NCBI GenBank assembly: GCA_949130485.1 | Contig: OX422194.1 | Coordinates: 7,841,273 to 7,905,272, forward strand | Source: Agelas oroides | Lineage: Eukaryota > Porifera > Demospongiae > Agelasida > Agelasidae | Direction: 5' to 3' | DNA: 64,000 bases | In this document: positions 7,601-41,000 of the stretch, in pieces | Position numbering within the stretch: the stretch's first letter is position 1 | Layout of the letters: each line of letters opens with the position of its first letter | Position numbers and translations under genes: made by a program | The notes under the pieces: generated by a model | What the model was told of the DNA's origin: nothing | What the model saw: the letters and a program-made list of their open reading frames with translations, nothing else | Databases searched by the model: none

Positions 7601-10600
7601 ATGGTTTCTGCGTCTGTTCGTTTGCTTCCAAGGCCCAGCTGCTGAATCCCCTCTAGATCTTTTTCAGAGAATGTGCTGTCATTCCAAACGAGCAAGGCAG
7701 GACCTTGTAGTTGCTGCCAATCTTCTGAGAGCACACTTTCTTGTCCATGAGTTCTTTTGTCAAGAATGACATACATCTTTGTAGCTTTTGCATCGTCAGC
7801 ATTCTGGAGGAATTCTTTGAGCACAGTGATGTCAAAAGGATACTGTCTAAGAATGTTCTGAATTCTCTGAGTTAGTTCCTCATGCTGGCCAAATGGAACT
7901 CCCTGAAAGTGGAGTTTAGCCTGAGAGGCATACTTCTCCAGCTTCTTGCTTCGAACTGGTTCCACCTTGAGCTGTAGAGCTAGCCTCCTTGGAATGATAT
8001 CATTTACAAATTTATAGTGTTCTTCTGGTTTGCACCAAGGGGCATCATTGAAAGCTAAATCTGAAGATATGTGCATCGCAAAAGAAGTATCTGGGAGCCA
8101 GATCGGCTGAGAACACTCACTGGGCTTGATTTTGTATAGTTGAGCCACTAGTTCACACAGCAGTTTTTGGCAAGCATCGTTGACAGGATGATCATTAAAA
8201 TCTTCTTTCATTTGAGACAGAACTCTCACAATATCCTCTGCAGTAAATTTGTCTTTGATTCCCAGTGATGCAACCAGGCTCTTTCTAAAGGCTAAGCTAG
8301 AAGGGACAGGATAGAGGTAGGGTCCCTCTAGCTTCCATTCTTTAGCAACATCTTGAATTGCAATGAATTTTGTGCCAGTCCACACACATGGAAGACCTTT
8401 CAATTCTTGTAAACCAGGAGGTAATTGTGGTGCTTGTCCTACTGGTGTTTCCTGCTGTATCTGCCCATCAAGAAACTCATACGTTTGTCGGCAAATGCGA
8501 TTGGTCCAGTCAACTAGGTCAGAATTAGGCTGTTGTGAGTTGAACTCAGAGATCAACAGTTTTAGGTGGTTTACAACCTCTTGACAAGATGGTGAATTTC
8601 GTACCTGGAGAATTTCTCGAGTTTTTTGGTTAATATAGCCACACCCACCCTCTTCCAAACTTGCTTCATTCACAATTGCTACTTGAGAGCCAGCTATGTT
8701 GATGTTATTCTCTACAATTTTAAAAGAATATCGGTGTGTGGTTGTTCCCTTTATCATTAGTTGTTCTCCACTGAGAAGTTGATGGCCTTCACCAAACCAC
8801 AGCAAAGGAAAGTCTACAGGCTTCTCCATGACTGGAAGAAATTGAACTGCACTTAAAGCTTTGGCTTCTTGTTTGGCTTGCTTGCCTTTTGAATTGGACT
8901 CAATGCACTCAAGAATTAATTTTACTCGTTTGAGTGCTTTTGTTTTATTAGTAGAATAAAGCTGAGCAATAGTTTCTGCCCGTTCAATCACCATGCTCCA
9001 AGGAATGGTTTCACTAATCATTCCAAGTTCCAACATTGCTGTACGTACCAGATGTCGTTCACTGAACTCTTGAATAGGGAACATACCCTCTGATGAGTCA
9101 TAGAGATTTGCAAACTCAGCTTTAGGATCAATAACCTGACCGCACTTTTTCAATTGACTTCCATCTGGAGTGCAAGGAACGCAAGGGTGTTCAGTGAGAC
9201 ATTCTCCCATGTAGTTTGTTCGTTCTGTTGGATTGTGATCAAGTCCAATAGCATACACTTCAAGCATGCACTGAAGGACTTCATTTCTACTCTGCTGAAT
9301 GTTGGTAAAGTGGGTTGTATTCTTGAAGAAAAACTGTATAAAGTCTTTTTCAGTGATGGTGGAGCTGCTGAGACTGAGGTGGGTGTGGTACTTGCTTGGA
9401 AGGTCAACAAGAGGTAGTCCTAGATGGGTAACAATGGCAAGCACACAGCTGAGAACATCAGGGTCAGTGGATGACTGGCACAGAATGCCAGGTTCCAGGA
9501 ACCTGCTTTCTTGGAGGCTCAACCACTGGTTTGTAGATGCAGAATGGAACAGTCTGCTTGGAGACAACTCCTCACTATAGAGTTTGTGCACAGCATAAAC
9601 CCAGAAATTGTGCTGGGTCAGGTCTCTTTCTAGTGGCCACAAAGAATAGAATGCATACTCCTCGAGCATCCCCTGAGAGTGCATCAGATGGAGTGATACC
9701 AAAAGAGAGTGGTATGCTTTGGGAATCACCTTTTGTATGAGGGACATGTTCCACTGTACTTCAGAATCACTTTTTGATGCTTCATCTGCTGTCCAGATTC
9801 CTCTTCGGTTGTTGATCACAGCAAAGTTGCTGCTCACATGTACAGGGAGTCCAGTCTTTTGTGCCAAGGGTAAGAAACAGAATACTTCTCCTTCTACTTG
9901 CTTAACATTGTAGCAGACACTAGGGTTAGTGGCTTCTAGCAAAGAAGCAACAGATGCAGTGGCTCGCTTGGTATTGATGGAGTCAGTATGGGTGGCTACA
10001 AGCCAGCAGTCTTCATGAGATTGTGAAGATTGTACATCCAGGCACCTCAGCTTCTTGACTTCAGCTAATGCTCCAGAAATGGGCTGTTCCTCCTCCTTGG
10101 TGATTTGTAGCAGGACTGTGGGGGTTATTTCACATTGGTCAATTCGACTGACAGTGATACACTTGATGTGCTGGAGGAAAAGAAAGAGCTTGGAGCTACA
10201 TTCTTTGATGTCGTGAATCAGTTCATTGACTGTTGTTTCAGTGTACAGAGTACCACTTAGCTCACTAGCAGAGGTGCGGAATGGGAACCTGAACATGGTG
10301 CCACTGTAAGCTTCCTTTGGATCAAAATCAAAGAGACCAGTGTATGGAACTAGCTGATTGGATGAAGCAATGAACCTCGAGGCAAATTTGACCTTTTTGC
10401 CTGGCCTTGCAGGGTTTTTAATTTCTTTCTTGAGGTAGCTCAAGGTGGGGTCAAAGATACACAGAGTGTCTTGACTAACAAAAGAGGGAACATCAGTAAT
10501 GTGGTATACAGAACAAAATCCAACTCCAAACTTCCCAATTTTCAGAGCTTTGCTTGCTTTTGTGGCTGCTGCTAGTTTTGTTATGTTAGTAAAGTCATCT

Positions 10601-13600
10601 TGAGAGAAGGTGGCATTGTTATGCACCACCAGTGCAGGTCCGTGGCAGTCTTGCATTCCTGGAAAGAAAAGAGAGTTTGGCTTTACAGTATGTGTGCGAG
10701 CATCGTAGCAAATATTGACCTCAGTAGCCTCAGCATCATCTGCATTTTGCAGTAGTTCTTTCACAATAGTCAGCCCATCTTTGTAGTCTTTGAGAATGTT
10801 CTTTAGTCGCACAGTAAGGGGCTCATACTGACCAACATCCTCAAATGTGTCTTCAGAAATGTCCAAATGCTCACTGAGAGGAGTCACACCTAGATTATGG
10901 GCCATTTGGGGATGAATGTGATGATGTACAAAAGTATATGATTCACTTTCGTCTGTGGATGCTAAGAATCCTTTGAGGAAGTCATTATCAGTGTAGACAA
11001 CTTCACTGGGCTCCATTAGCTGTGCCCATAAGGAGTCTGACTCTACTGGGACGTACAAGATGTCTTTCTCCGATAGACAAGGTTCTTGTGTCCCATCACT
11101 TGTGATCCAGTTGAGAATGCTCATCACAGTTTGCCATGCCTCACTGTCATCAGATCCTGATCCTTTGTCTTTGATCATTGAAAGTACAGACACAATTTGA
11201 GACTGGGTAACTTTGTGTTCCATGCCAAAGGCACTGAAGAGGTCTGAGTATCTGAACAAGTTGTCAGGAAGAATGTAAATGTACGGCTCAAGGTTGTGTC
11301 TGAAGCTGCTGTTCTGGTACATTGCAACAACATCAGGGCTAACAAAAATGTTGTACCTTCTGATCCAGATCCATTCTGGAAATGACTTCAGCCCATGTAG
11401 TTGTTGTGGGTGTTGTTTCTTTGAAGTCTGGAGGTACTTGTAGATCAGGTCAACAATGTGAGTCATTGTGTCAGTAGAGATTTCTTGCTTACAGCGAATT
11501 ACTTCTTTAAAGTGTGCCAAGATATGATTCACAGATATCCCAGCAGCAAAGATGCTTGAAATGCTGGAGGGTAGGGTTGAGTCCAGTAGGTACACCTGCG
11601 AACCAACTACCAGTGATAAAGAGTGAAAGTTGTCAGTAGTTGGAATGAGAACTGAACTGCTGAGGGAAATAAAATGGGATGTAAAGCCCCTCCCTTTCCA
11701 CTCCAAACAGGAAGGGTAGCCTTCGGGAGGTGATGAGCAAACTGGTAGCCAGTTTCGGTCTGTTGCCAAGTTCTTCAGAGTTGTTGAGAAGGGGTAGCTT
11801 TGGGATCTCCACTGGTAGGAGGTAGTGACAATAATGGAAAGTATCGAGGAGTCACACTTACTCAGATACTCAAGGACAGCCTTAGCACGAGACAGTTTTG
11901 TGCTGTCAACTGACTGTGGGTATGTATTTGCTGGAGTGCTGATGGCACAAATGATATACACAATTTCCTGTGGTTTGACAGTTATGCGCAAGCCACAGTT
12001 CCTCAAGTGCTGAAGGTACCTTGTCTTGTCAAATGGCAAAGTGGGAAAAACAGGCTCACCTTTATACAGCTCACACAGTAGCTGAACAGAAGGGTCAAAA
12101 AGTTCATGTGGACACTTTCGGGTTCCTGACTGTGTTTTGAGAAATGGGAGACTTTGAAGTGCAGACAGCAGCTGCTGTTGTTTTCCATAAGGAGCTCTGG
12201 AGACTAGGATCTGGAACATGTCCAGAATTTCTTGCATGAGGTCGTCTAGAAGATGGTCTGGGAAGACTCTTCTCTGAATTAGAGGGAAGAGGTAGTCAAG
12301 GATAAAGTCAAGGTTGCTAGGAAAAGCAACACTGCTACCTAAACACCTGAGAAGTTGTACTTGGTAGTACTCATGAGAGAACATGAGAAGGTTGGGAGGT
12401 AGGTGGGATGCACTGACAACTGTGTTCTCTGGTTCTACAACTGCTTTGCAGAGAAGTGAGGAATGCTCAGCAGTTGCAACTGAGTAGAGACTACCACCAG
12501 AGTTCTGTGCAGTGGCGAAAATTGCAAGATTTTGAAGAGTGGACAACTGCCATTGATTTAGAGGAGAGGTTGACCCTGATGAAATCAACTCACAAAGGCT
12601 GCGTGCTTCCTCTGATGTCATTGACACCATCCGCAGCTGAAAAGTGGAAGTGGAAAGTGCAATTGCATCCAGGATACCAGTTGCATTGAACTGCTTCAGA
12701 CATGAGGTGAGTTGATGGTGTTTGAGGTAGAGAAAATCTGCTACCTTGACATACCTGACTTGTAACTTATCAAGGGCTGCTGCAAGTGATGGAGAGCAGG
12801 AAGTAAATTGTGGTATATACACCACTGCTGAGTTTGCACTGAGACGAGTGACATGAAAGTCCACACCATACTGCCGGCTACTCTGGCTGATGGGAAGTAT
12901 CAAGTTACCAGCAAAAGGCTTGAGAGATTTGCTTCGCACCCACTCCCAAAACTTCTGGAACCAATCAGAGGGGAAGCAATGATCTGGTAGAGAAACTATC
13001 TGCTGGTGTCTCCACTCTGGAGGCATGGATGTGGGGATGAGCTCTGCTATCTTTTCAACAGTTAACTTCTTCAGCTGTGTGACTTGTTGGTCAGCCATCC
13101 CACTCAGACTCTTTGAAAGGTCAACATCATTGGGTAAATCAACCAATATGTTGTCCAAATTTGGAAGCAGATAGCGAGGGCACTCTTCAGTGCAAAGGTA
13201 ACAACAGTGTTGGGAATACCGAGAAAAACTTTGAAAAGCAGTGAAGGTATGATTTGCAACTGGAAGGAGGGCTAGACCAGGAAGCTCACTATACTGCTCG
13301 TCAGATAGACAATATCTGAGTATCTCCAACTTTCCTATCTCATCAATATAGTAGTAGCTCTGCGGGTTGCTTTTTAGCTGTGTGCGTACAAATCTAGGTG
13401 ACACTTCTGAAACTGCTTTTCTAGAATGACGCAAGGCACTCCAGATTCTGACAGGAACGTCGACTAGCTTAATCCCACTTTGAGAGAGGGCATTACAGAC
13501 AACAGATGCAACTTTGCTTCCTTTTGGGATGAATGAACCCTCACCTATTGCGATCCACTCTCCTACTACTCGCAATGCTTCTGTTCGTTCTGTCCAAACC

Positions 13601-16600
13601 ACTGCTTGACTAAAGAGCTGAGTGAACAAAGGAAGCAGGAGACCCTCCCAGGGTGTGGGCTTCACTGCATCCACAACAGGCCAGGCTTCATAGAACTGCT
13701 GTGGATAAAGGTTCTTGATTTCCATGAGCAGTTTGGCATAGCATGGGGGGAGGAGCTCACTTACCAGCAGTTTGTTCCAGTCAGCTGCAGGATCATTCTG
13801 TCTCTCAACAGTTAGCCATTTTACAGTTCTACGGTCGTCGTTTAGACCAAAGGTGCCATTGACATGCATGGGCAGGGGAGAAGAAGCCTCAATGGGCATG
13901 GGAAGGAAGCAGAAGATGCGCCCACTAGAAGTGGGTAAACTTGAGTCATCACTCAGCTCTAGTGCCGCTCCTACCCAAGGGAATACATGCTGTTTTGCAG
14001 CAATATGAAGAACAGTTTCATTTTGTGACCCTACCTGGTTAGCCACTAGCCAGTGGCTGACTGTTGTGGTATGCTGGAACTGGTCAGTTACTTGCACATG
14101 GAAATCTGTCACCAGGTCTATGGACCTAGTGATGCAGTATGGTAGTGCCCCTGCCTGCGCACTTGCTGTTCTCAGCTCATTCATAAAATGTTCTCGCTTG
14201 TGGCAGACGTCATCCTTTTCATGTATTGCTACCTGAAAGGACAAGTTTTGTTGCCCAAACTCAGATATCTCGTAAACTTCAATTTCTTGAATAGAGCGGA
14301 GGAAAAGAAGCAAGAACTTGGCCTCATCTCTGAGAGCGACAAGAAGATCATGTAGCTTCTGAACTGTGTAGCAGTTTTCTGATAGATCAGAGGGAGCTTT
14401 ACGTAGTGGAAATCGAAAGAGCGTGCCATAATAGGTTCTCACCTGAGCAGAAAAGCCAGCTATTCCCTCAAATGGTGCTAGACTATCCAACTTGCCTTGA
14501 CTATGAATGTCCTGAATGAGGTAGGACCGTCCTGACTCTCCACGCCACACCTTCTCCTGAGGCTCCATGTAGGCCAACTTGTCTCCACTGATAATCACTG
14601 GAAGGTCTGCATAACAATAAGTTTGTTGTGCATCAATTTTTACATGCATATGCAAGTTAGCTACTAAGTATTAAAATTAGCTCCTTTTTGGCATATAGCA
14701 TCATAATGATTGCACATTCTTAGTTGCTGTAATTAGCCAGATTGTAGGTACATACGACTGACCAAAACATTCATGCTGCTAAAAAGCTATGCATCACAGC
14801 GCATGTGCCCTCAAGATTGTACAAGACATTAATAGGTATATACATAACAGCTTAGTTTCCTCAAAAGAAAATTGTTAAATAAACTGTTAGGGCTTTATTC
14901 TTGAGGTAGGTACACCATGGCATTAACAAATATACACTCACATTGAATGTCCATTGGTTCCTCTGTGGTTCAAACTACCTCTCGTCATTATTAGCAAATT
15001 ATTTGTAATGCAAGGAAACTCCTATTATGCTAAAAAAAATTATGCATGCATAGCTAGCACAGGCCTATTCCTCTGACCTGGCAATATTATACTAATTACA
15101 TGAATCCTTCATCCTCGGGGGGGGGTAATAAGCACATCTTTCTTCCTGTAAATCAATTGGTGCATCCACTTGTTACACATGTCCCAAGCAAAATGTGAAG
15201 GTGGCATATGCAGAAGTACCTGGCACTCTCCAAGCTACCCTGGATAGCCAACTCTTATGTGACAGCTCTCATGGGACATGACCTCTTCCCTCACAAGGCA
15301 CACACCAAAATTGTTGTGATCATTTCTCTCCTCATAGTAAGTTGAAGAACCTTGCCAACAGTAGCTCTCTCCTATACACTGTGATCTCATACAACTTCTT
15401 GACATGCAGATACACAGCATCTTCATTGATTAAATTTGCCATGACCCCGATCTTTTGTTATAATTTTTTATGTGTACTTAGTATACTGCTAGTAAGCACA
15501 TACTGATATTAAGAACATGACTTTTGCTGCTACATACAATAGACACATGTGCCTATTAACCAGTTTCTAAACCAATTGTGCTCTATGGGGAGCGGATACC
15601 TGGACTGTTGTCTTTTAGCAGAAAAACTATACTTTGTTTTTGTTTAAATTGTGCATGCAAAATGTGGTTCCCACCATACACTAATCTAAATAGACAAGAG
15701 CGCATGATGACGTCATTTTTTATTTGGGAGGGAGGAGGAAGAGTGTGTAACTTCCTATTCTGGCCTTGGTGAAAGCAGAATCTTTTGCGTGTACTATAAA
15801 TAGCACATCTGGTCGAGTTGTAGCTAGTGTGCGGGTGAAGCATGAGTAAAATGTAGCTGCTAAACAATTGAGTTGGAGGCTTATCGGTTAGATAAGGACC
15901 GCGTGTTACCCAGGGAGATGCTCAAGAGTTTGACTGAAAGGCTATGTGGCCGTCTTTGACTGTCAGGTGTGGATTGCATCGTAACACGAAGTTCAGGCCT
16001 CGCGTCAGGAAGGGCCGACAACCGTTCCTGTGTAGGTAGAACTTGCCAGGTAAGCTTGGAGTGTTCACATCTTGTTGACTACGAGGGTAACACTGCGTTG
16101 TGAGGTCGTAGATCGTGGAACTGCGAACTTGTGCAAAGGTGTGTTCTATTTTTAGTACACGCGGGAGATTCCGCCTGTTTCGAATGTTTGCCAGTTACAC
16201 GCTCTTCCTCCTCCCTCGAGGCCTCCGCAATAAAAAATGACGTCATCATGCGCTCTTGAAATAGATCATGAGCAGCTTTCACTAGCACTTTCTAAATAAG
16301 ATTTAATGGTGATTAACACAGCAGAGGGGCATGTGCACCGCATTAATTAACCTAATAATTGGTGCTCAACATTTGCATGCTTTTCTCTCAGCCAACTGGT
16401 TCCAAGTGAAGTCCTCTTGAATTCTTGTTAAAATCTTCAAATCCACTCTACCCAAACCCACATGGCTGACAACTACCAGCACCAACCCAAACTCGAAATG
16501 TGCTCCTCTCATGCTACCACACAGGGTGGAAACCAAGTTGAACTGCCAACCATTGATCTCCCAATGAGAGCTATCCAGGCCATGGAAGAACTGGCAAAAG

Positions 16601-19600
16601 TCCTCAAACAGTTCTGCATAACCACCTCAGGTAAGAAAATTTACACCACATCTCACCTCCTTACAGAATTGCTAAGCAGTTCTCTTTTTTTTTATTTCTG
16701 TTAGCAGCTATTTTTCCATGGAAGAACTGGCAAAAGTCCTCAAACAGTTCTGCATAACCACCTCAGGTAAGAAAATTTACACCACATCTCACCTCCTTAC
16801 AGAATTGCTAAGCAGTTCTCTTTTTTTTTATTTCTGTTAGCAGCTATTTTTCCTTCTTCAGTTATTTTGTCCTTTCAATTTTCGCCACCATATTTCTGGA
16901 TCTATACTGCAACTATCCCACTGCAACTACCCCATGTCAGCAAGGAGCAATTCACTCCTCTTACACTGACCACCCCCAAGTTGTGGTTGCAAACCACACA
17001 TGCAGCAACTACCCCAGGTCAACGAAAGCCATAACACACTTCTCGCACTGACCACCCCAAGTCGCTCTAGCTATTGCAACTACCCCAGGTCAACAATTTA
17101 TTTCAGATAACTCAGACAAGCCAGTGATACAAGTGGCCAGCCTGGGTTATTTTTGACCAAAATTCCATCAGGAAGTGGCAGACCGGGCCTCCACTGAAGT
17201 GGCCCATCTTGACCCTACTCTACATGGCCAGTGTTTCAACAGCCAAACAAAAGAGGGTAACGCATGGTGCCAACACTGTCACTCAGCTTGGATTCCTGCC
17301 ACTTCAAACCCCCTCCCACTAAGATCCGTAGGCAAGCACCAGCTGAACAGGCCATTATTCAGACCCGGCTTACACCTGATTAGGAACTACAATTGGAAGG
17401 GGTGTAAATACGGCAGAAAGTGCCGCCACACCCACCAATGTCTGGAATGCTGCAGGCCTCACCCTTTGGCACAATGCCCAATGGCATTCTCATCCTCCAG
17501 CAAGCCAGAGGGCCCCTCCCATCCTGTCTCAAGGGTAAACTTATCATATCTCCCCCACGAACACTTTCATAACTGTTAAGTACTCATCAGTCTTAACACT
17601 GTGTCCGCATTATTATACCTATCATAAGCATTTCTGTGGTACTAATACCATGCCCTGATGTAGTGATCTGCACCACTATCACTCATTCAATTCATGGTGT
17701 TGTAAACCTGAATTATCAGTAAAAAAAAATTATTTTGTCACTCACCACTCGTAGGCCTGTCATACTATACCCCTGACTGCCTGCTTACCCCTATCCATAC
17801 ATGCACTGGCTAGAGGGTCTAAGGACTTGCACCCTTACTATTGCCCCCCCAGCTACCACAAGAGCGCCAAGCTATACAACTCCCCTTAATCTATCCAAAT
17901 GACAATCAGAGCTACAGGGTCACCCAGACACAACATTCGCCAAATTTATTGTTGCTTGTCTGCAGAAAAACTACGCAGAAAAACTATGCAGCCTAAACCA
18001 GTCAATCAGAGAATGGAGAGGTCACAAAGCTGCAGAAAAAGGGAACTACTCTCACTCCTTAGCTCCCTACAACATGCAGTAAAAGTAGTGAAGCCAGGCC
18101 AGGCTTTTGTTCACCGGATGGTCAAACTTTCACACTTCCATGCAGACCTTCAATGGTGTACCAGATGGTTTCCACTTGGAATGGGGTGTCTATCCTAGCC
18201 CCAATAAAGCTGAGGTTCCAGATAGCATCATCACCTCAGATGCATCAGGTGGCTGGGGCTTTGGTGCCTTTCATGCCAATGAATGGTTCCAAATTGTCAT
18301 ACCACCCCACTACACATCACTACAAAGGAACTCCTGCCTGTGGTACTTGCTACAGCCATCTGGGACTGCAACAATTCAGCCCACAACTTTGACCACATCA
18401 TGCTATGGGCTACATCAACAGGAGGCAACAAAGGTCCACTCTTCTGCTTCTAGAATGGTCATCCCCTGGCATATGAACGTTTTAGTTTGGGAAGCGCTAT
18501 CAGCCTCCAGCATTGACCAATCCAAGTACACAGGTCACAGTTTTCGAATAGGCACCACTACAACAGTGGCACGATGCGGCATTGCCGATTCCACAATACA
18601 ACTCCCCAGCAGATGGGAGAGCACAGCCTACCTACTTTACGTCCACACCCCGTCAAACTCTAGCAGTTTTGTCATCTGTACTTAGCAGGTCGACATCTTA
18701 AACCTGCATGTACAGATGTATACGTAAATACTTGTGCCACCTTCAACACCGAAACATAACTTACTCTTATATACACTGCACTCATGATACTGAAAGCTTG
18801 ACAGTCTCATACCCAGCAGCCACTCAGTATGTACTGTCAGAACTTAAATAGGGATCAACCAGAAAATTCTCCCCATCAGGAAAGAACCCATGTTGAGCAG
18901 TTTCTCTTAGTCTAAATGTTTTTGCTTCAGCTGGAAGTAAAGACATTTTGATATTATGAGATGAAAACAGAGGAAAGCTGGCAGTCACTACAAATTGAAG
19001 CTAGGGCTCCTGGCTTGAGCCACCAGAGCTCTACCACTGAACTATGACCATTGGACAACCATCATTCCTGGCAACCACTGTTTTTTCACTTTCCTCTACT
19101 GTTGCCTCATAACATCAAACATGCCCTGGGGTGGATTTCTTGATGACTGCCAGCTTTTCACTTTCCTCTGTTTTCACCTCATAACATCAAACATGCCTGT
19201 ATTTGTAGCTAAGGCAAGATGTTTAAAGTAAGTACTAAGTATGAACCTGTGATGTGGTAAACGGAGTTGAATCCAATTCCAAATTTTCCCACTTTGAAGG
19301 GGTCCTCTGCCTTGACGCTGCGCTGCAAGTTCTGTATGCCCTCCCAGTCCTCGTCGTTAAACTGTGCATCGTTGTAGGCCAACAGCGCAGGTCCTTGGAA
19401 GGGCTCCAACGCGGGATCCACGAGTGACGTCTTTCCATGCTCCCTACTGTCGATGAAAAACCTCACCGTCTTTGCCCCAGCATCATCTGCATTCTGAATA
19501 ATCTCCTGCACAAAGAAACACATAACTTTATAGTTGGAGGTAGTTGGAGGTACTAGCTAGCAAAAAGTGTAGAAGCACTTACTGTACAAGCTCAAATTGA

Positions 19601-23898: not shown

Positions 23899-26800
23899 TT
23901 ACAATTCCAATACCTCAAGCACGTAATCTCCACACTCCAGCCTAATCACTGATGCATCCTTGGAGAGCACTGATGCTTGTTCATGGGAAAGTGGGAATAT
24001 CTCTTGAGCTACGAATTTGGGAATCAGGAAAGTTAGCTGCACACATCCTGGATCCACACTGACAATGATCAATGCAGCCACGTTGACCTGAATAATCTTA
24101 GCAATTCTTCCCTTAATCCGACGAAGCTCTTTACATTTAATATCTTCACGAACATTGAGCTTTACAACAAATTTCTTCTGCTTTGAATCACCAGTGCCAG
24201 TGCTACTCTCAGGCATAAGCACTTCAAAAATTCTACGCTCACAAAATTTGTGAAGCTTTTTACAATAACTTGCCAGTCTCTCAGTATCATCACTTGTGCC
24301 ATACAGATTTATGATATACTCTAAGAGCTCATAATTAAGATAGTTCCAATAAGGACACAAAATATTAAAGATTTCTGAAATTGTATCAGCCCTGTTAATT
24401 TCTTCTTTGTGTTCATCAAGAAGTGACCGATCTTGCTCTTCGGGAGCTGGCTCATATGCCCTTAGTGTTAAAATACTTGTAGCAAATTTCCCTACTGGGA
24501 CTTGTTCTTCAACAGAGTCACGTGTCTTTGTGACTAAGTAGCCAAACTCATGTGTCATATTTCTCACATCATCATCCAGCATTGCTTTGAGTTCCTCTTG
24601 CTCACTAGAGCTTAGTTGCTGAAACGAAGACTGACTACTGAGAACATTTTTCAGCTCTGCATTTGTACCATTTGCAGTGCTTGTACTGCTGTGTTCATGC
24701 CTCAAGGTAGATGGCAGTTCCTGATTACTGCTGTTGGTGACACTCATGCTCACAGAGCTGTCTTCTGAGGTAACAGAAAAGAAAACTTACACTTGCATGT
24801 AGAGAACTGGCAAACAAGGCCACCAGGTAGCTTAGTAAACAACAGGTAATAAAGCACAGAAGACTGTTGGGAGTGTTACAGCAGCTTCTCCAATAGTCTC
24901 ACAAGCCAGACCCACTTCCGCAAGAAAAGGAAGGGTCTGGTGAACTGGGTATACAAGCCGTGTCCCACCAGAATGCAATTAGCTGGAGACATAACCAAAT
25001 TTCAAATAATGCACTCTTGAATTACCTGTTGTGGAGTAAGCACGCTCCCTGAGGAGCATAGTCGAAGTGTTTTTATAACTCCTGCGGTAGCGGAAAGATG
25101 TCCGTTTTCAAGAATGCTATTGCTACTCAAATAGTGATGTAATGCGTCGTGACAAAATACTGCAACATGATTGGACCGCACTGAACAGTGCGGTGGGACA
25201 TGGCTTGTATACGCAGTTCACCAGACCCTTCCCTTTTTTGTGGAAGTGGGCCTGGCTTGCGAGACTACTTTTCCAACACTGCTGGGGGAGAAAATTAGAG
25301 GACCTGGAGAAGGCCAAGCATTTATCAATGTGTAGCTGTAACTTAGAAAGTGGTACAGTGCTCATGTTATAGGCAGTTAGATAGGTGGCATACAGAAACT
25401 TACTTGCAGCTTCACCAACACTACTTTGAGAGAAGAGAGAGCCTGGTGAAAAGCCAAGTGCTCAGTATAAATGTGTAGCAGGTGCAGTCTATGAAATAAT
25501 AGTACCTAGTACTTGCATGGCTCTTCTCCAGGCTCCCTCTGTTCACCCAGAAGTGCTGGAGGATCTGCAAGTAAGTTACTAGGTACTATAAATGCATAGT
25601 TGTGACTTAGAAAGTGCAAAGTGGTAGCTACAGTCTATGCCACATTAGTGTCTAGTTAGTTGTAGATCCTCCAGCACTCTTGGGAGAGAAGAGAGGACCT
25701 AGAGAAAGTCAAATACTTCTACTGCAATTGTAACTTAATTAGAAAGTATAGTTAGATAGATAATATATGCAGCACCTACTAACTTACTTGCAACTCCTTC
25801 AACACTGATAGGGGGCACGAGAGGTCCTAGAGAAAAACCAAGTAGCTACCTATAAACGTGCAGCCAGTGTAGCTTAGAAAGGAAAGTAACATGTGGTATA
25901 CCTTGCTGTTGTCTGGGTGATCCCAGAGCTTGACATACTACCTCCACCATGCCTAGCATGTCAGCTTGATAGAAACATTTGGCAAGGTTTCCGTATGTGG
26001 CAGCTGGACCATGTTTTGACCTCCATTTCCGCAATACAGCAAGCCTAAGGATTACAGAACACTTGTTTCCATTCACTCTTCACAAACTATTAATTATGTA
26101 CTGGACACGACTAGTACATGCTGGAGTGTTCACCCAGGCTCTCGGTGGGCGGGAAAAAGAAGAGCCTGGTATCCACTGTTTGTGCATGCGATTAATTTCC
26201 CAGAAATCTTGGGAAATTGGGAACTATCATGTTATATCCGTACAACCGTGACATCATAATGTATACTTACCACTACACCGTCCGCACATTTTCTGACCAA
26301 CGATGGAGTTCTTTTGAGCATTAGTTCTCCATTGCCCTCCAGCGCCCTCCAACAGGTAGGTACTTCTGATATCAGTCTCAAGACAGTACAAGTAGCTTCC
26401 ATTTTGGATGTTTGCCGGGGGATACGTGTTTATACTGTTACTACCTGGTAAGTCTGTGTGATATGAAGTGTTTCCATTTGTCATAGACTGTAAGTTAGCA
26501 TGAACTAATAGCGAATCAGGAGGGTGTAGCACTAGTTGTAGTGTAGTTGTTTCGCTGTTTGCATGCGTGGTACTATACTAGTATATGTGCTAAAACTTAC
26601 AACACAATATCAATCACATGGATGCATATTACGGGTTCCCCTCCCACTGTTACTTGAACACGTATTCAGCAGTGGATAATTACGCGCATGCATGAACAGT
26701 AGATACCAGACTCTTTTTCTCCCCGCCCACCAAGAGCCTGGGTATGAGGCTAGTGTTCACCTCATTCCCAGGATCCAGCTTTCTGTCGCTGTTTTGTTTG

Positions 26801-29046: not shown

Positions 29047-32000
29047 CTAACTGTTTACAAGTGTTTTCATCATGTCTAAGATGGTTTCAGCTTTCTCTTT
29101 TGCTTGTTGCGCATCTTCTGGTGAATAGTGGTCAGATGGAGTATTGCCAATACTACTTGGGTGTTGATCTGGGTATCGTGTGCTCAGGTAGTATTTGTCA
29201 AGTTTAGTTGCACATTCATCTAGTAGATCCTGATCTCTTAAAGGTGGATCCTTTTTCTTCAGCTCTTGCACCAGAGGAGGCAGGTAGTGTGTTATCAAAT
29301 AGAACCCACACTTTCCATACATCCCACCTTTCAGGGCCCTCTCTGCCACCTGGTGTGCCATAAAGCACACAGTACATGAGAGCTCAGGTTGTGTTGGTAC
29401 CTCCTTTAGGAGAACCTTGAGTGCTATAAATTCAACTTCAGCTTGCTTTACCCACCTTTTCCCTTCTTCAGGGTTGGGTTTTCTGACCACTTTGCTTTCT
29501 TCCTCAGCAGGGGCCAGAATTTTTCCAGCCATGGCTCTTTTTTCTTGGGGAATTTTGCATAGATCGAGTGCACTGACTTCAATGCCTTCTTCATCATCTT
29601 CACTTGCACAAATCTTGTATCTCATGCAAGTAGGATCTTCACTGCTACAGCTACCACCATCTTCAGCCACCACAGGATGAATAACCTGTGCAAATATGAA
29701 ATTACCTTCTCGGTCTTTATATCCCACTTGTTCTTTTGGGCCAAAGAGGTTGCTGATATTTTGGTCAAGGCAGTGATGCTGTGATTCTGGTATGGGCATC
29801 CCAAGCTTTGGAGTGACACTAGATTCTGCACTGTCAAGGAAAAGCTTGTGTTCATCAAGTACAACACGAATGTCTTCTGCTGTTTGAGTCATCAGAAGCA
29901 TTGTTAGAAGGCGTTTAAACTCAAAATGAGTGGGGAATGAAATGTTTGCAGACACTGATTTCATAGCTGAAATTAGGTATTCTGCCAGGTACTCAAACAC
30001 GTAAAACTTCCTTACATCACTCATTCTCAATTTTGTATAGAAATCAAAGGAATGTTCACCTCTCTGCAAATAAAACTCAACTGTCGCTCTCCCAAGGATT
30101 TGCTTTGGTTGCACAGTTGTCAGCATAATGTCAGTTTGAAGATCATTTTTAATTGCATATACTCTGATGAACTGCAAAAAATGTAGCAAGAATTGCTCAA
30201 AGTTCTTGCAGACTTCATCATCCTTTGTAAAATGCTTGAGTGCCTTTAACACTGCTTCAGGAAACTGAGGTAATGCAAAGGTCGTCTTGAGATTATTAGT
30301 AAAGCAGGATTCAGAGATGTCCACAATGGTACACTCTTCTCTCAGAGTTTGTTCACAGCACGTTTGTTCACAGCATGTTGAAAGCCCCTTGGGCCTGATA
30401 GCCTCTGGGAGATACTCACAGAACATACATTCATGGAATTTGTATTGTGTGCTGGGGAGGTGCAAGAGGAATAAACCGGCTTCTGCAAGGTGGTCTAGTT
30501 CACAGCTCTTGTACATTATGCTATCACAATAAACAAGATCTGATGTGCACACTAACTTTCCTTCACTACTGGGAAGATAAAGTGGCTTCAAGGCAGAAAC
30601 AATGTCCTCATCACCCACTTTCCCAGCCCTCCTGATCTGCTCCAACATCAGATACAGTCTTTCAATCACTTTCACAGCTTTTTCTGCAGTATTGAATTCG
30701 AGTTGCAACTGGTCAGAACATTTATATGCATTCTCAAGGGCAATCCTCATGTGCTCCAATTCAAAACTGCTCTTCACTCCATTTTGTTGAAGTAGAGGAA
30801 GCACAGAAGCCAGTTCATTCGGAATACAGTGAAGGAATGGATAGTACTCCTGAGCATCTCTGTTAGTGAGAACGTGGTTTGGCTTCACAAGGACCACTGG
30901 CACACTTTGGTTGGGAGCCACGACACTTTGGTCTGGGGTGGCATAAACAGGAATACATGAGAGACTACTTAGTTTAAGATCAGCTGAAGTTGAGTTCAAA
31001 AATTCTCTAAAGTGTCTGACCATTACCTCTACTAATCCTTTTGATTTATCAGGAGGTCTGCAATCTTGAGGGCATCTGTCAAACAGGTCAAAGTTGGCGA
31101 AACGAGACTTAGCAATAGTGAGCAGATTTGCAATCACATCAGCGACACTAGGAGATGTGGTTACCTGCAAACCTGTAAGAAGGTTTTTGTGCCACTCCAC
31201 TAGTCTGTTATAGGGAAGGCACACAATTGGTTTGACAGTCCACAGAAGACTGCTGTGTTCATGAAGTGCTGCACCAGCCAATTTTGTCATAGCAATACCT
31301 TTTGCATGATTCTCTGAGGGGCAAACAGGCTCAATCCAGCTCAGTTCTGGGAGTTTCTCTGTGCACACGAATGAGATCTGTGAAACACTTGAGAGGAAGT
31401 TGTGGTCAGTGTTCCATCGATCATTCTCAGCTTGTTCAGAGAAGAGATAATCAAGTAAGACAGAGGATGCTTGTCTGGGATCAGGGTGCTTCCCACCAGC
31501 TGTTTCTGTACAGAATTGCTGATACTCTTGCTTGGTAATGGACTCTCTCAGTCCAATCTCACGAAAAAATTCCAACCACTCATCACTTTCATCCTCCTCA
31601 CTTGTGAAGCATTTTGACAGAAAACAGAAGTGCTCAGCAAATGTTGTAAATATTATCTTCTTATGGTTGCAGACTTCATTTGCACATCTCAGGACTTCAC
31701 CATCACTTCCCAAGCAACGGAGATTTCTTAGTTTATTAAAGAAACTTTGTGATTGTTGCTTCTGAGATGGAGGTCCTGATTTCAGGTTGAGTTTGTTTCT
31801 TCCAAAGAGATGGTCTCTTATGTGTCTCAGATGTTTAAATCTCTCATCTTCACTAAACTGGGAAAACACAGGGAAAATGTAGTTGATATACAGCTGTTCT
31901 GGATATATTGTTTTGATTTCCAAATCAGATTCATGTCCAAGTCTAGCCCAGTCACCATGTCTATCTAAAAATTCAACACTTCTGCCATGTACCCACTTGG

Positions 32001-35000
32001 AATATCCAACTCTGCAAGCATTCACTGGCCAAACGTACACAGTTTTTTCATCAAGAGTAGCAAGATTTCCTTCAATTGTAAGAAAGAGTGGAAGGGCTTT
32101 TACACATTCTTGACATTCATGTTTACAGAAATTGGTGTTTCGCAAGTAAGTGATGAGAGTGGCAACATTGTCTTTTGTGATCATTGAAGAGATGTCTCTC
32201 TCTCGGTGGAGGTGGTACAAGTTGGTCAGTATGTGCTCATAATCACTCAACTGTGGGCAGTAGCTCTGTACAACTTCTGCATGTACAACATCCGTATCTA
32301 GGAAAGGCATTCCAAGATGCTGCAGTAGTTTGTAGATTTCAGAGAAGTTTTCCTTCCTGTGATGAGTCAAGAGAGAAGTTGGTGGTATGACAGGAAGAAG
32401 TGTATTTTTTGATGAAAACAGTTGGTTGGTGGTACTGGGTAGCAAGGCCCAGGCCCACAGTACGTTCCTTAAATGTGAAGAGAATGTCTTGTCATGGTCA
32501 CTGGAAAGGCAGGCCCACAATTCAATGAGTTCAGACTTGGTTATGTGCTCACATGCATTATGCACATGTGTAGTTTGTAGTGCACGTGGTAGTGCTTTGG
32601 AAAGAATTCCTTGAAGTATCTCTGGTATTGTACAACTCTGTGGGTCATCTTCAGGGGAAAGGAAGTAGTTGCTGCTATACTCCTGATTCGAAAGTTCTGG
32701 ATGTAGAAACTTTTCAAAGCTCTTGGGGAAGAGTTGTGAATATTGTGAAGAAATCACTTTGTTTCTTTCATCAAAGTTTCTAAGTTGACCATCTGCAGTG
32801 AGAAGGAGTGGATGGCCGAATGGAGGCTTGGGAAATTCCCTATTGCCTGGTTCTGATTTACTAGGCTGTAAAAGGTATTTGGTGAATACTTTGAAATCTG
32901 CAATTGAATAAAAAGCAGTTGCTTCAACAGCACATGGGAATCTTCCATTGGGACTAACCTGCCCACTAAAGTGTGTGTAGTGTTTATGCACAGAGGAGGG
33001 AGACGTTTCAGGAAGATCACACTTGACAGTGTGGAAGTGGTTCTTGAGTCCCAGTGGTGCACAGGTTATTTTCATCCCAATGCACTCCAAGATAGGCTTT
33101 AGTGGTGCATCATCATGGTCATCTCTAGGTGCCCAGAAGTATACCGGAGAAGATGGGCATTCTGAGTTTATCAAAGGGTGCCACTTTATTGTGTATTGTG
33201 TATCTGGCTCTGAGGGGGGCTCTTGTACTGAAGCTGCTGTAGAGGGTGGTGACTGAGTAGATTCAATGGTTGCAAGGACAGTTGCATTGTTGCTAGCTAG
33301 ATTTCTGTAGACATCTTCTGCTAGTTTGAGCCATGGTCCTTCAGGAACACAGCAGGAATGAAATTCTCCCTTAGACCAGTTTGGGAATGCACTATAGTAG
33401 CAATGTAGGTCATTCTGGAGGGTACTCAAATCCTCGTAGGGTTCTGACTTAATATAATAGTTGCGGGCATACACCAGAAAATCAGCATAGGAGGAAGATA
33501 TTGCCTTGAGAAGGTTCTCATTCCACCTTGACTTGTCATCAACTTCTCCTGGAACTGTGGATTGCCAGAGGTTTCTGCGAGATGCATCAAAAAAGAAATG
33601 AGCATTCACATGCACTGGCAGGTTGCAACTCACCGAGAGAGGGAGAAGGCAAAAAACATCACCAAAGAATTTCTTGAGGTCCTGTAGTGAGACAAGAGGT
33701 GCAGCTATGCCATATTTAGGTTTGACCTGTGAGATGTAATTCCATGTTTGTTGCTTGTCTTCCAAGTCACCAATGCCTTGTTGAATGAGCCACTTTTCTG
33801 TCTTTTGCTTCTCCCTTTTCTGCAGTGTATTAGGGAGGGTTTCAGTGATAGTCAGAGGGTATCGGACCACACAAGGCTCGCTCCCCCTCATATCCTTGAA
33901 AGCAGCAATTTTCTCATGAAGGTGAGCACGACTCTGTCGAGCTGATTCATCAATACATACCTGAAAACAGTGCTCTGAAACTAGTGAGGGCACAGGTACA
34001 TCTGAAATCTCTGGTGATGATAGCACGACCTGCTTGTGGTCCTCGATAACAAAAAAGCATAGTTCTGTCACATGGTTCAGAAACAGTAAAGCTTGCTTCA
34101 TTTTTGGAGCCCAATCACTAAGATATCCATGCATTCTGTCAGCTGTAAGAGGTTCATTTGTGTAACTAGTGCTGTAGCCTACAATCTGTGAGGACTGCAT
34201 GTGGTCACATGTGTGTCTCAGTGGAAAGCGAAAGAGGGATCCACCCAGCAATTCTGGTGGGCAATCTTTGAGCCCATCTTGCAGATAGGCTGTTTTGAGG
34301 TCTGGAAAATCCTCCCAAAAACCACTTTTCAGATCATCAAATCTTCTTCCTGGCATCTGTGAAGAAGCCTCAGGAACAAAGCGACAGTGAGGGTCCATAA
34401 TGCAGAGAGTCTTTCCACCAGTGATGAAGCTGGGACAATCTGTAAGGTGGTAGACCACATTGAAACCAATGCCATATTGGCCAATGGATTCTGCATCTGA
34501 TCGTTTGCTTCCAAGCCCCAGCTGCTGAATTCCCTCTAGATCTTTCTCAGAAAATGTGCTGTCATTCCAAACAAGCAAGGCCGGACCTTGTAGCTGCTGC
34601 CACTCTTCCGAGAGCACACTTCTTTTGCCATGAGTTCTTTTGTCAAGAATGACATACATCTTTGTAGCCTTTGCATCATCAGCATTCTGGAGGAGTTCTT
34701 TGAGCACAGTGATGTCAAAAGGATACTCTCTAAGAATGTTCTGAATTCTCTGAGTTAGTTCCTCATGCTGACCAAATGGAACTCCCCGAAAGTGGAGTTT
34801 AGCCTGGGAGACATATTTCTCCAGCTTCTTGCTTCGAACTGGTTTCACCTTGAGCTGTAGAGCTAGCCCCCTTGGAATGATGTTGTTAACAAACTTGTAG
34901 TGTTCTTCTGGTTTGCACCAAGGGGCATCATTGAAAGCTAAATCTGAAGATATGTGCATCACAAAAGAAGTATCTGGGAGCCAGATAGGCTGAGAACTCT

Positions 35001-38000
35001 CACTGGGTTTGATTTCGTACAGCTGAGATACTAGTTCACACAGCAGTTTTTGGCAAGCATCACTGACGGGATGGCCATTGAAATCTTCTTTCATTTGAGA
35101 CAGAACTCTCACAATATCCTCTGCAGCAAATTTGTTTTTGATTCCCAGTGATGCAGCCAGGCTCTTTCTAAAGGCTAAGCTAGAAGGAACGGGATAGAGG
35201 TAGGGACCATCTAGCTTCCATTCTTTAGCGACATCTTGAATTGCAATAAATTTTTTGCCAGTCCACACACATGGAAGACCTTGTAGTTCTTGTAAACCAA
35301 GCAGTAATTGTGGTGCTTGTCCTGTTGATGTTTCCTGCTGTATCTGTCCGTCAAGAAATTCATACGCTTGTTGGCAAATGCGATCAGTCCAGTCAACTAC
35401 TTCAGAATTGGGCTGTTGTGAGCTGAACACAGCAATCAGCAGTTTTAGGTGGCTTACAACTTCTTGACAAGATGGAGTATCCCGCAGCTGAAGGGTTTCT
35501 TGAGTTTTTTTGTTAATATAGCCACAACCACCCTCTTCAAGACTTGCTCCATTAACAATTGCTACTTGAGAGCCAGCTATGTTGATATTCGTCTCTGCAG
35601 CTTGGTGCAGTGTTGCTCCTATCATTAGTTGTTCTCCACTGAGAAGTTGATGTCCTTCACCAAACCATGGCAAAGGAAAATCCACTGGTTTCTTCATGAC
35701 TGGAAGAAATGGAACTGCACTTAAAGCTCTGGCTTCCTGGTTGGGTTGCTCGCCTTTTGCATTGGACTCAATGCACTGAAGGATTAATTTTACTCGTTTG
35801 AATGCTTTTGTTCTATTGGTGTGATAGAGCTGAGCAATAGTTTCTGCTCGTTCAATTACCATGCTCCAAGGAATGGTTTCACTAATCATCCCAAGTTTCA
35901 ACATTGCTGTGACTACCAGATGTCGCTCACTGAACTGTTGAATGGGGAACATACCCTCTGATGAGTCAAAGAGATTTGCAAACTCAGCTTGAGGATCAAT
36001 AATCTGATCGCACTTTTTCAAATGACTTCCATCTGGAGTGCAAGGAACACAAGGGTGTTCAGTGAGACATTCTCCCATGTAGCTCATTTGTTCTGTTGGA
36101 TTGTGATCAAGTCCAATAGCATACACTTCAAGCATGCACTGAAGGACATCATTTCGACTCTGCTGAATGTTGGTAAAGTGGGTTATATTCTTGAAGAATA
36201 GCTGGATAAAGCCTTTTTCAGTGATGGTGGAGCTGCTGAGACTGAGGTGGGTGTGGTACTTGCTTGGAAGGTCAACAATAGCCAGTCTCAGATGGGTAAC
36301 AATGGCAAGCACACAGCTGAGAACATCAGGGTCAGTGGATGATTGGTGCAGAATGCCAGGTTCCAGGAACTTGCTTTCTTGGAGGCTCAACCACTGTTTT
36401 GTAGATGCAGAATGAAACAATCTGCTTGAAGACACTTCATCCTCATAGAGCTTGTGCACAGCATGAACCCAGGGATTGTGCTGGGTGAGGTCTCTTTCTA
36501 GTGGCCACAGAGAATAGAATGCATACTCCTTGAGCATCCCCTGAGAGTGCATCAGTTGGAGTGACACCAAAAGAGAGTGGTATGTTTTGGGAATCACCTT
36601 TTGCATGAGGGACATGTTCCACTGTACTTCAGAATCACTTTTTGATGCTTCATCTGCTGTCCAGATTCCTCTTCGGTTGTTGATCACAGCAAAGTTACTG
36701 CTCACATGCACAGGGAGTCCAGTCTTTTGTGCCAAGGGTAAGAAACAGAATATTTCCCCTTCTACTTGCTTAACATTGTAGCAGACACCAGGGTTAGTGG
36801 CTTCTAGCAAACAAGCAACAGATACAGTGGCTCGCTTGGTATTGATGGAGTCAGTATGGGTGGCTACAAGCCAGCAGTCTTCCTGGGATTGTGAAGATTG
36901 TACATCCAGGCATCTTAGCTTCTTGACTTCCGCTAATGCTCCAGGAATGGGCTGTTCCTCCTCCTTGGCGATCTGTAGCAGGACTGTGGGGGTTACTTTG
37001 CCTTGGTTGATTCGGCTGACAGTGATACGCTTGATGTGCTGAAGGAAAAGGAAAAGCTTGGAGCTACACTCTCTGATATTGTGAATCAGTTCATTGACTG
37101 TTGCTTCAGTGTACAGAGTACCACTTAGCTCACTAGCAGAGGTGCGGAAGGGGAACCTGAACATGGTCCCACTGTAAGCTTCATTTGGGTTGAAGCCAAA
37201 GAGACCAGTGTATGGAACTAGCTGATTGGATGAAGCAATGAACCTCGAGGCAAACTTGACCTTCTTTCCTGGCCTTGCAGGGTTTTTAATTTCTTTCTTG
37301 AGGTAGCTCAAGGTGGGATCAAAGATACACAGAGTGTCTTGACTGACAAAAGAGGGAACATCAGTAATGTGGTATACAGAACAGAATCCAACTCCAAACT
37401 TTCCAATTTTCAGAGCTTTGCTTGCTTTTGTGGCTGCTGCTAGTTTTGTTATGTTAATAAAGTCATCTCGAGAGAAGGTGGCATTGTTATGTACCACAAG
37501 TGCAGGCCCGTGGCATTCTTGCATTCCTGGAAAGAAAAGAGAGTTGGGATTGACAGAATGTTGGCGAGCATCGTAGCAAATATTGACCTCAGTAGCCTCA
37601 GCATCATCTGCATTTTGCAGTAGTTCTTTTACAATGGTCAACCCATCTTTGTAGTCTTTGAGAATGTTCTTCAGTCGCACTGTGAGGGGCTCGTGCTGAC
37701 CAGCATCCTCAAATGTGTCTTTAGAAATGTCCAACTGCTCACTGAGAGCAGTCACACCAAGTTTATGGGCCATTAGGGGATGAATGTGATGATGTACAAA
37801 AGTATATACTTTACCATCGTATGTGGATGCTAAGAATCCTTTGAGAAAGTCACTATCTGTGTAGACAACTGCACTGGGTTCCATTAGCTGTGGCCATGAT
37901 GACTCAGACTCCACTGGGACGTATAGGGTGTTCTTCCCTGGCAGGCAAGGTTTTTGTGACCCATCACTTGTGAGCCAGTTGAGGATGCTCATTACAATTT

Positions 38001-41000
38001 GCCATGCCTCACTCTCATTGGACCCTGAACCTTTGTCTTTGATCATTGAAAGGACAGTCACGATTTGTGACTGGGTAACTGTGTGTTCCATGCCAAAGGC
38101 ACTGAAGAGGTCTGAGTATCTGAACAAGTCATCAGGTAGAATGTAAACGTATGGCTCAAAGTTGTGCCTGAAGCTGCTGTTTTGGTACATTGCAACAACA
38201 TCAGGGCTAACAAAAATGTTGTGCCTTCTGATCCAGATCCATTCTGGAATTGACTTGAGCCCATGTAGTTGCTGTAGGTATTGTTTGTTTGATGTCTGGA
38301 GGTACTTGTAGATCAGGTCAACAATGTGAGTCATTGTGTCAGTAGAGATTTTGTGCTTACAGCGAATTACTTCTTTAAAGTGTGCCAAGATATGATGCCC
38401 AGGTATTCCAGCAGCAAAGATGTTTGAAACGCTGGTCGGTAGGGTTGAATCCAGTAGGTACATCTGTGAACCAACTACCAGTGATATGGAGTGAAAGTTG
38501 TCAGCAGTTGGAATGAGAACAGGACTGCTGAGGGAAATAAAATGGGATGTAAAGCCCCTCCCTTTCCACTCCAAACAGGAAGGGTAGTCTTCAGGAGGTG
38601 AAGAGCAAACTGGTAGCCAGTTTCTGTCAGCTGCCAAGTTTTTCAAAGCTGTTGAGAAGGGGTAGCTTTGGGATCTCCACTGGTAGGAGGTGGTGACAAT
38701 CACTGAAAGTGTAGAGGAGTCACACTTACTCAAATACTCAAGGACAGCCTTAGCACGAGACAGTTTGTTGTTGTCAACTGACTGTGGGTATGTATTTGCT
38801 GGAGTGCTGATGGCACAAATGATATCCACAATTTCCTGTGGTTTGACAGTTATGCGCAAGCCACAGTTCCTCAAGTGCTGAAGGTACCTTGTCTTGTGAA
38901 ATGGCAAAGTGGGAAAAACAGGCTCACCTTTATACAGCTCACACAGTAGCTGAACAGAAGGGTCAAAAAGTTCATGTGGACACTTTCGGATTCCTGACTG
39001 TGTTTTGAGAAATGGGAGACTTTGAAGTGCAGACAGCAGCTGCTGTTGTTTTCCATAAGGAGCTCTGGAAACTAGGATCTGGAACATGTCCAGAATTTCT
39101 TGCATGAGGTCGTCTAGAAGATTATCTGGGAAAATTCTTCTCTGAATTACAGGGATTAGGTAGTCAAGGATAAAGTCAAGGTTGCTAGGAAAAGCAACAC
39201 TGCCACTCAAACACCTGAGAAGTTGTAGTTGGTAGTACTCATGAGAGAACACGAGAAGGTTGGGAGGTAGGTGGGATGCACTGACAACTGTGTTCTCTGG
39301 TTCTACAACTGCCTTGTGGAGAAGTGAGGAATGCTCAGCAGTTGCAACTGAGTAGAGACTACCACCAGAGTTCTGTGCAGTGGCGAAAATTGCAAGATTT
39401 TGAAGAGTGGACAACTGCCATTGATTTAGAGGAGAGGTTGACCCTGATGAAATCAACTCACAAAGGCTGCGTGCTTCCTCTGATGTCATTGACACCATCC
39501 GCAGCTGAAAAGTAGAAGTGGAAAGTGCAATTGCATCCAGGATACCAGTTGCATTGAACTGCTTCAGACATGAGGTGAGTTGACGGTGTTCGAGGTAGAG
39601 AAAATCTGCTACTTTGGCATATCTGACTTGTAACTTATCAAGGGCTGCTGCAAGTGATGGAGAGCAGGAAGTAAATTGTGGTATATACACCACTGCTGAG
39701 TTTGCACTGAGACGAGTGACATGAAAGTCCACACCATACTGCTGGCTACTCTGGCTGATTGGAAGTATCAAGTTACCAGTGAAAGACTTGAGAGATTTAC
39801 TTCGAGCCCACTCCCAAAACTTCTGGAACCAATCAGAGGGGAAGCAATGATGTGGTAGAGAAACTATCTGCTGGTGTCTCCACTCTGGAGGCATGGATGT
39901 GGGGATGAGCTCTGCTATCTTTTCAACAGTTAACTTCTTCAGCTGTGTGACTTGTTGGTCAGCCATCCCACTCAGACTCTTTGAAAGGTCAACATCATTG
40001 GGTAAATCAACCAATATGTTGTCCAAATTTGGAAGCAGATAGCGAGGGCACTCTTCAGTGCAAAGGTAACAACAGTGTTGGGAATAGCAAGAAAAAGCTT
40101 GAAAAGCTGTGAAGGTATGATCTGCAAGTGGAAGGAGGGCTAGACCAGGAAGCTCACTATACTGCTCGTCAGATAGACAGTATCTGAGTATCTCCAACTT
40201 TCCTATCTCATCAACGTAGCAGTAGCTCTGGGGGTTGCCCTTGAGCTGTGTACGAACAGATTTAGGTGACACTTCTGAAACTGCTTTTCTAGAATGACGC
40301 AAGGCACTCCAGATTCTGGGAGGAATGTCCACTAACTTGATCCCACATTGGGAGAGAACATTACGGACAACAGATGCAATTTCGCTGCCATTTGAAATGA
40401 AGGAACCCTCACCAACTGTGATCCACTCTCCTAATATTTGCAGTGTTTCTGTTCGTTCTGTCCAAACCACTGCCTGCCTAAAGAGCTGAGTGAACAAAGG
40501 AAACAGGAGACCCTCCCAGGGTGTGGGCTTCACTACATCCACAACAGGCCAGGCTTCATAGAACTGCTGTGGACCAAGGTGCTTCTTAGCTTCCATGAGT
40601 AGTTTGGCATAACATGGGGGGAGGAGCTCACTTACCAGCAGTTTGTTCCAGTCAGCTGCAGGATCATTCTGTCTCTCAACAGTTGGCCATTTCCGAGTTC
40701 TACGATCATCGTTTAGGCCAAAGGTGCCATTGACATGCACTGGCAGGGGGCAAGAATCTTCGGTAAGAGTGGGAAGAAAGCAGAAGATGCGCCCACCAGG
40801 AGAGATGGGAGAACTCGAGCCATCACTCAGCTCTAGTGCCACTCCCACCCAAGGGAATGCATGCTGCTTTGCAGCCGTTTGAAGAACAGTTTTATTTTGT
40901 GACCCTACTTGGTTAGCCACTAGCCAGTGGCTGACTGTTGTGGTACACTGGAACTGGTCAGTTACTTGCACATGAAAATCTGTCACCAGGTCTATGTGCC

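Follow-up and report, generated by a model that had tools for sequence, protein, structure and literature searches.

Between exon 2 and the last exon of a Death-domain gene on the minus strand of the analyzed window (the whole 64,000-nt stretch of DNA) lies a row of short, similar units, raising the question whether these are exons that can be spliced into the mRNA, remnants of former exons, or copies of a mobile element carrying splice sites by chance. We consider it probable that the array arose by tandem duplication of a genuine small cassette exon, of phase 1 at both ends, within the intron separating the Death domain from the carboxy-terminal domain.

Exon 1, exon 2 and the last exon (Table 1) join into a single open frame of 404 residues when all units are skipped. 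The Pfam Death profile (PF00531) matches residues 40–105, spanning exons 1 and 2, with an E-value of 1.3e-8 and 35.3 bits, above the curated cut-off of 22.6, placing the protein in the Death-domain family. For the carboxy-terminal region (P0001), an effector-side domain had been proposed. The searches lend this assignment no support: the region matched no Pfam family, and a profile of the P0001 alignment yielded no sequence relative in the PDB at an E-value of 1 or better. A Pfam search of 56 aligned relatives of P0001 returned single weak matches to three families, in one member each.

Table 1 Coordinates of the Death-domain gene, the units of the array and the elements associated with them.
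Feature	Position	Strand	Details
Exon 1: beginning of the Death domain, with the start codon	27975..28180	-	206 nt; open frame, ATG at 28180, donor CGGAG|GTACC
Exon 2: remaining Death domain, phase 1 end	25902..26044	-	143 nt; acceptor CCTTAG, donor CAAG|GTATAC
Unit 1 (U1): intact 39-nt micro-exon, adds GPLVPPISVEGVA	25788..25826	-	AG acceptor, donor CAA|GTAAGT
Unit 2 (U2): 39 nt, donor lost (GTAAGT to CTAACT)	25660..25698	-	reads CAA|CTAACT
Right arm of the inverted repeat around U3	25577..25599	.	23 nt
Unit 3 (U3): inverted, 39 nt	25532..25570	+	splice sites intact on the plus strand, CAA|GTAAGT
Left arm of the inverted repeat around U3	25489..25511	.	23 nt, 87% complementary
Unit 4 (U4): intact 39-nt micro-exon, adds GSLFSQSSVGEAA	25404..25442	-	donor CAA|GTAAGT; C2 paralog 93% alike over 90 nt
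Unit 5 (U5): 5' part	25268..25303	-	nhmmer 5.9e-8; start 139 nt from U4
MITE in U5	24894..25267	-	374 bp; terminal inverted repeats, target duplication
Unit 5 (U5): 3' remnant past the MITE	24872..24893	-	without CAA|GTAAG donor
Last exon: Ser/Thr-rich linker and carboxy-terminal domain, including the stop codon	23899..24764	-	open frame

The gene is flanked by two giant uninterrupted sacsin-like frames on the minus strand (1651–14670, 4339 residues; 29047–41547, 4166 residues), each comprising three SACS stretches and one HEPN domain. A second Death-domain gene (45848–47461, minus strand; Pfam E 2e-11), with a downstream frame containing GCVGIIWLIP, was not matched by any micro-exon unit. Elsewhere in the window, positions 16580–16853 form a perfect 136-bp tandem duplication, the unit of which contains a CTCAGGTAAG stretch.

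On the sense strand of the gene, exon 2 is followed by U1, U2, the inverted U3, U4, U5 with the inserted MITE, and the last exon. The five units are spaced by 128, 128, 128 and 139 nt and are homologous to each other, with blastn E-values between units as low as 1.8e-10. A unit profile recovered all five at E-values of 9e-21 to 6e-8, including U5, which lay outside the profile, and gave no match below E 0.5 elsewhere in the window; as it was built from four window units and two units of a paralog (C2, see below), this profile is partly circular. The acceptor is AG in all five window units, and U1 and U4 combine intact GT-AG sites in the sense direction with phase 1 at both ends. The donors of U1, U3 and U4 agree with CAG|GTAAGT at 8 of 9 positions, compared to 6 for the exon 1 donor and 5 for that of exon 2. 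Searched on both strands of the 64 kb, the pattern of a pyrimidine tract and AG, 39 nt and GTAAG has four distinct occurrences, three of which are units of the array. These data confirm the original prediction in its description of five homologous units at a period of 128–139 bp, the intact ones measuring 39 nt with phase 1 at both ends, an AG acceptor and a CAA|GTAAGT donor. The same holds for its middle unit inverted with intact splice sites on the opposite strand, the unit whose donor changed from GT to CT, the unit cut by a MITE, and the tandem duplication of a symmetric phase-1 unit within a Death-domain gene.

Due to their equal phase at both ends, each unit can be included or skipped without a change of frame. 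Judging from the sequence, the sites usable in the sense transcript would be confined to U1 and U4, with U2, U3 and U5 out of use, so that at most four linker forms, with 0, 13 or 26 extra residues, are expected. The variable linker proposed earlier would thus be limited to these two units. The live units encode 13-residue Gly/Ser/Pro steps, set in a flexible linker that is already Ser/Thr-rich. In the MAFFT alignment, U5 also contains an insertion of 3 nt, and the sequence past the MITE lacks a CAA|GTAAG donor; the unit may therefore have been dead before the MITE arrived.

The MITE shows 76-nt terminal inverted repeats that are 91% alike and a 9-bp target duplication, TTGGA[A/G]AAG, with one mismatch. 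Its presence within the array, as well as the inverted repeat formed by the flanks of U3, would fit an origin of the units themselves as copies of a mobile repeat with fortuitous splice sites. Genome searches over 259 Mb argue against this: the U1–U2 and U3–U5 DNA matched only its own place (C12) and one C2 locus, compared to 40 scored places (own included, from 759 candidates) for the MITE in the same search. Likewise, the DNA of the units in a further paralog (C13) matched only itself. Hence, the units do not occur in the many dispersed copies seen for the MITE, which speaks against the unrelated mobile repeat named earlier as a refutation. As this DNA search returns near copies only, missing the diverged C13 units, and skips very common words, a mobile-repeat origin is ruled out within the range of near copies; we regard it as extremely improbable.

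The orientation of U3 finds its simplest plausible cause in a flip between the 23-nt inverted repeats surrounding it. An inverted unit could also mean that the array acts via RNA structure, U3 pairing with U4 and shutting its splice sites, with the flip as a switch or as splicing control by competing structures. The array indeed folds better than its shuffled counterparts (z −4.57; 0 of 100 shuffles as good), a score that is expected since any inverted copy pairs with its neighbors, and in the minimum-energy fold 29 of the 39 exon bases of U4 are paired to U3. In the present arrangement, the fraction predicted to be unpaired is 0.03 for the U4 acceptor and 0.32 for the U4 exon; turning U3 back gives 0.12 and 0.44, and shuffling it 0.13 and 0.44. 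For the U1 donor, the fraction is 0.14 in the present arrangement and 0.41 once U3 is turned back, a comparison without the shuffled control. In contrast, the U4 donor hardly moves (0.47 as is, 0.51 with U3 turned back, 0.45 with U3 shuffled). The occlusion of U4 by U3 is thus predicted to be modest, and no inverted unit was found in the C2 or C13 paralogs. We rejected hairpin control of splicing on the modest size of the effect in these predicted fractions, and an array working through RNA structure appears very unlikely.

To place the array within its gene family, we compared the 18 loci with a recognizable separate exon 2, drawn from 99 matches. Unit number as well as the live or dead state of the units differ between paralogs of the same genome. 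In the C2 paralog (L003; region C2:1826400–1836399) the gene is intact, and the DNA of its last exon is 91.6% alike to that of the window gene; both frames are open, with dN/dS of 0.079/0.153 (NG86) and 0.087/0.116 (YN00). Of its three units, U1 is dead, with 10 nt deleted across its donor, and both U2, which has a GT donor, and U4 are intact; counterparts of U3 and U5 were not found. The dead unit therefore differs, being U1 in the C2 paralog and U2 in the window gene. In the C13 paralog (region C13:7930200–7932300), with an exon 2 that is 60% alike, two units of 36 and 63 nt are present, both multiples of three, of phase 1 and stop-free, with CAG acceptors and the donors CAA|GTAAGC and CAA|GTAATT. 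Using a profile without any C13 unit, they scored 37.7 and 16.8 bits, versus a best score of 12.7 in 1000 shuffled introns, and they are too diverged to show as a repeat of each other.

Two further loci carry donor-less relics of a unit, L007 (0 of 300 shuffles as good) and, more weakly, L008 (1 of 300). Altogether, the exon-2 loci comprise three with units, two with relics (one of them weak) and 13 in which none were found. Among the latter, the stretch read extended from exon 2 through the last exon in L009, L014 and L039, and over 1.5–2.0 kb in L041–L050, with the last exon not identified, so that units lying further on would be missed. The shuffle controls covered L007, L008, L009, L014 and L039–L045. 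Faint profile matches to the 3' part of a unit in L048 and L049 (E 0.04), without a GTAAG donor, were counted as none. With none found at 13 of 18 loci, most members of the family can do without the unit exon.

For the last exon, 135 matches were scored, 13 of them at E < 1e-80 with its own place included; for one close last-exon relative, L006, no such exon 2 was found in the stretches read. A tree of the 18 exon-2 proteins (44 columns) gave good support only for the pair of window gene and C2 paralog and for one deep split. No relatives were confirmed in viral_contigs and genome_contigs. Other linker arrangements were seen within the family: L012 (1117–1212) and L013 (1109–1204) each contain a 96-nt linker exon, of phase 1/1 by reading, as well as a similar copy located some 1 kb upstream of it, and the linker part of the last exon is extended by repeats of a SSSQELQPVLRHEH-like segment within the exon itself, two in P0093 and four in P0110. 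Upstream of a close last-exon relative lies an open frame (L038, 201–1091, plus strand) in which DIEKNPGP, which we take to be a 2A-like motif, precedes a stretch resembling a Death domain (21.4 bits, slightly below the 22.6 cut-off; Pfam E 2.7e-4).

The main alternative to cassette exons is that the units are decaying pseudo-exons, a former exon having been duplicated within the intron, with none of the copies now spliced in and the intact sites as leftovers. The units are readily broken (U2, U5, U1 of C2, L007, L008), which would be in line with such decay, as would the 13 exon-2 loci in which none were found. U3 adds to this, being intact though unusable in the sense transcript, and for this reason intact sites alone are no proof of use. 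We assessed the splice sites against neutral expectations. In an eight-unit alignment the splice columns were less variable than random columns (P 0.017 for AG and GT; 0.003 with GTAAG). Neutral simulations, starting from an intact ancestral unit and following a neighbor-joining tree derived from the other columns, yielded a mean of 0.7–2.0 intact units out of nine, whereas 7 of 9 were observed (P for 7 or more of 0.005 or less); these and the following simulation values are rough, as the tree is based on about 70 columns and the units were found by their likeness to intact ones. The nine assessable units leave out U5 and the two relics and score the inverted U3 as intact; including broken or relic units weakens the result. 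With three extra tips, P for 7 or more of 12 was 0.02 without indels and 0 of 3000 runs with indels. For the units outside the window alone, of which four out of five are intact, P was 0.010 when indels were left out and 0.0003 when they were included; given at least two of U1, U2 and U4 intact, this outcome for the five others arose in 21 of 420 runs and in 0 of 88, respectively. With halved branch lengths the simulation is not decisive, these values rising to P 0.12/0.02 for 4 of 5, P 0.29/0.05 for 7 of 12, and 309 of 1332 and 44 of 607 runs for the conditional case.

At the peptide level, differing codon positions across non-independent unit pairs were most frequent at the third position (140/357), followed by the second (111/357) and the first (83/357), and the pooled pS of 0.37 compared to a pN of 0.26, again from non-independent pairs. 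Between the window and C2, in contrast, U2 and U4 show six changed codons, all of them non-synonymous end to end (one synonymous and six non-synonymous steps by path counting), indicating no peptide-level constraint between these units. The lack of a synonymous excess in this comparison is again in line with pseudo-exons. The exact unit peptide seems to be free, and length, flexibility and splicing may be the properties that are kept. Against the pseudo-exon reading stand the number of intact units, 7 of 9 where one to two are expected, and the C13 units, which deviate from 39 nt by −3 and +24 nt and thereby keep the frame, the longer one remaining stop-free over its 63 nt. Weighing both sides, we regard pseudo-exons as rather unlikely.

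We also searched for spliced units among protein hits, using regular expressions for exon 2 and for the unit peptides, the latter within the first 90 residues. Among the 120 listed of 222 protein hits, which are exon-level frames, none showed a unit in its coding frame. On visual inspection, P0049 appears to continue through a unit-like stretch in a different frame. P0020 runs from exon 2 straight into the last exon with the linker almost absent, and its sequence looks genomic, as it starts in an apparent intron.

Together, these data make genuine cassette exons that evolve by birth and death the most likely reading of the units, and their use in mRNA is likely. In this scenario, unequal exchange would have duplicated the units and raised their number, a flip between the short inverted repeats would have turned one of them round, and point mutation, deletion and the MITE would have killed others. 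Selection, weak on the peptide and stronger on the splice sites and the frame, would retain about two live units per gene. U1 and U4 would then be included as cassettes, adding 0, 13 or 26 residues. For the case of cassette exons that are spliced, this predicts four mRNA forms in the window gene and two different live pairs in the C2 and C13 paralogs. The genome would then allow single exons to be traced in their birth, their decay, their inversion and their destruction by a transposon, across closely as well as distantly related genes, and would offer a Death-domain protein linker that is varied in fixed steps. A far-reaching version of this idea, to which we assign only a slim chance, is a modular linker ruler by which the Death-domain family would tune its domain spacing through gaining, losing and flipping cassettes of 12–21 residues. 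Selection would keep about two usable ones per gene (U1 and U4 in the window gene, U2 and U4 in C2, A and B in C13), and inversion in place would act as a heritable off-switch that also masks neighbors by base pairing.

Among the literature matches listed, we found no earlier report of this array, and we consider it a new variant of tandem exon duplication. Tandem exon duplications are described as neighboring homologous exons that resemble each other in length and content and arise by tandem duplication (PMC6071210, PMC9013439). The array shares with them homologous units that lie within one gene and are not dispersed; it differs from these and from mutually exclusive clusters in consisting only of 36–63-nt units, one of them inverted. 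Whereas mutually exclusive exons contribute exactly one copy per mRNA, the symmetric phase 1/1 found here also allows both or none.

A second likeness is to the schistosome micro-exon genes (MEGs), in which series of very small symmetric exons, each of which can be left out with the frame preserved, give rise to a pool of similar proteins (PMC4350168). As described there, the coding region consists mostly of such exons, and the genes encode a signal peptide and are apparently restricted to flatworms (PMC4350168). The exons here are likewise very small and symmetric (39, 36 and 63 nt, phase 1/1). In contrast to the MEGs, two live units with predicted splicing are located in one Death-domain linker, and micro-exons account for at most 26 of 430 residues.

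A functional analogy is provided by MyD88, in which the exon for the linker between the Death and TIR domains (residues 110–155) is present in MyD88L and skipped in MyD88S, resulting in a dominant-negative form, a signaling switch shown by experiment (PMC8772076). Without claiming homology, we note that both cases feature an in-frame exon coding for the linker between a Death domain and a carboxy-terminal domain, a single exon in MyD88 as opposed to duplicated units of 12–21 residues preceding an uncharacterized carboxy-terminal domain here. By this likeness, the most likely role of the units would be to set the distance between the Death domain and its partner domain, or their assembly, be it through a fixed, gene-specific linker length or through a regulated splicing choice.
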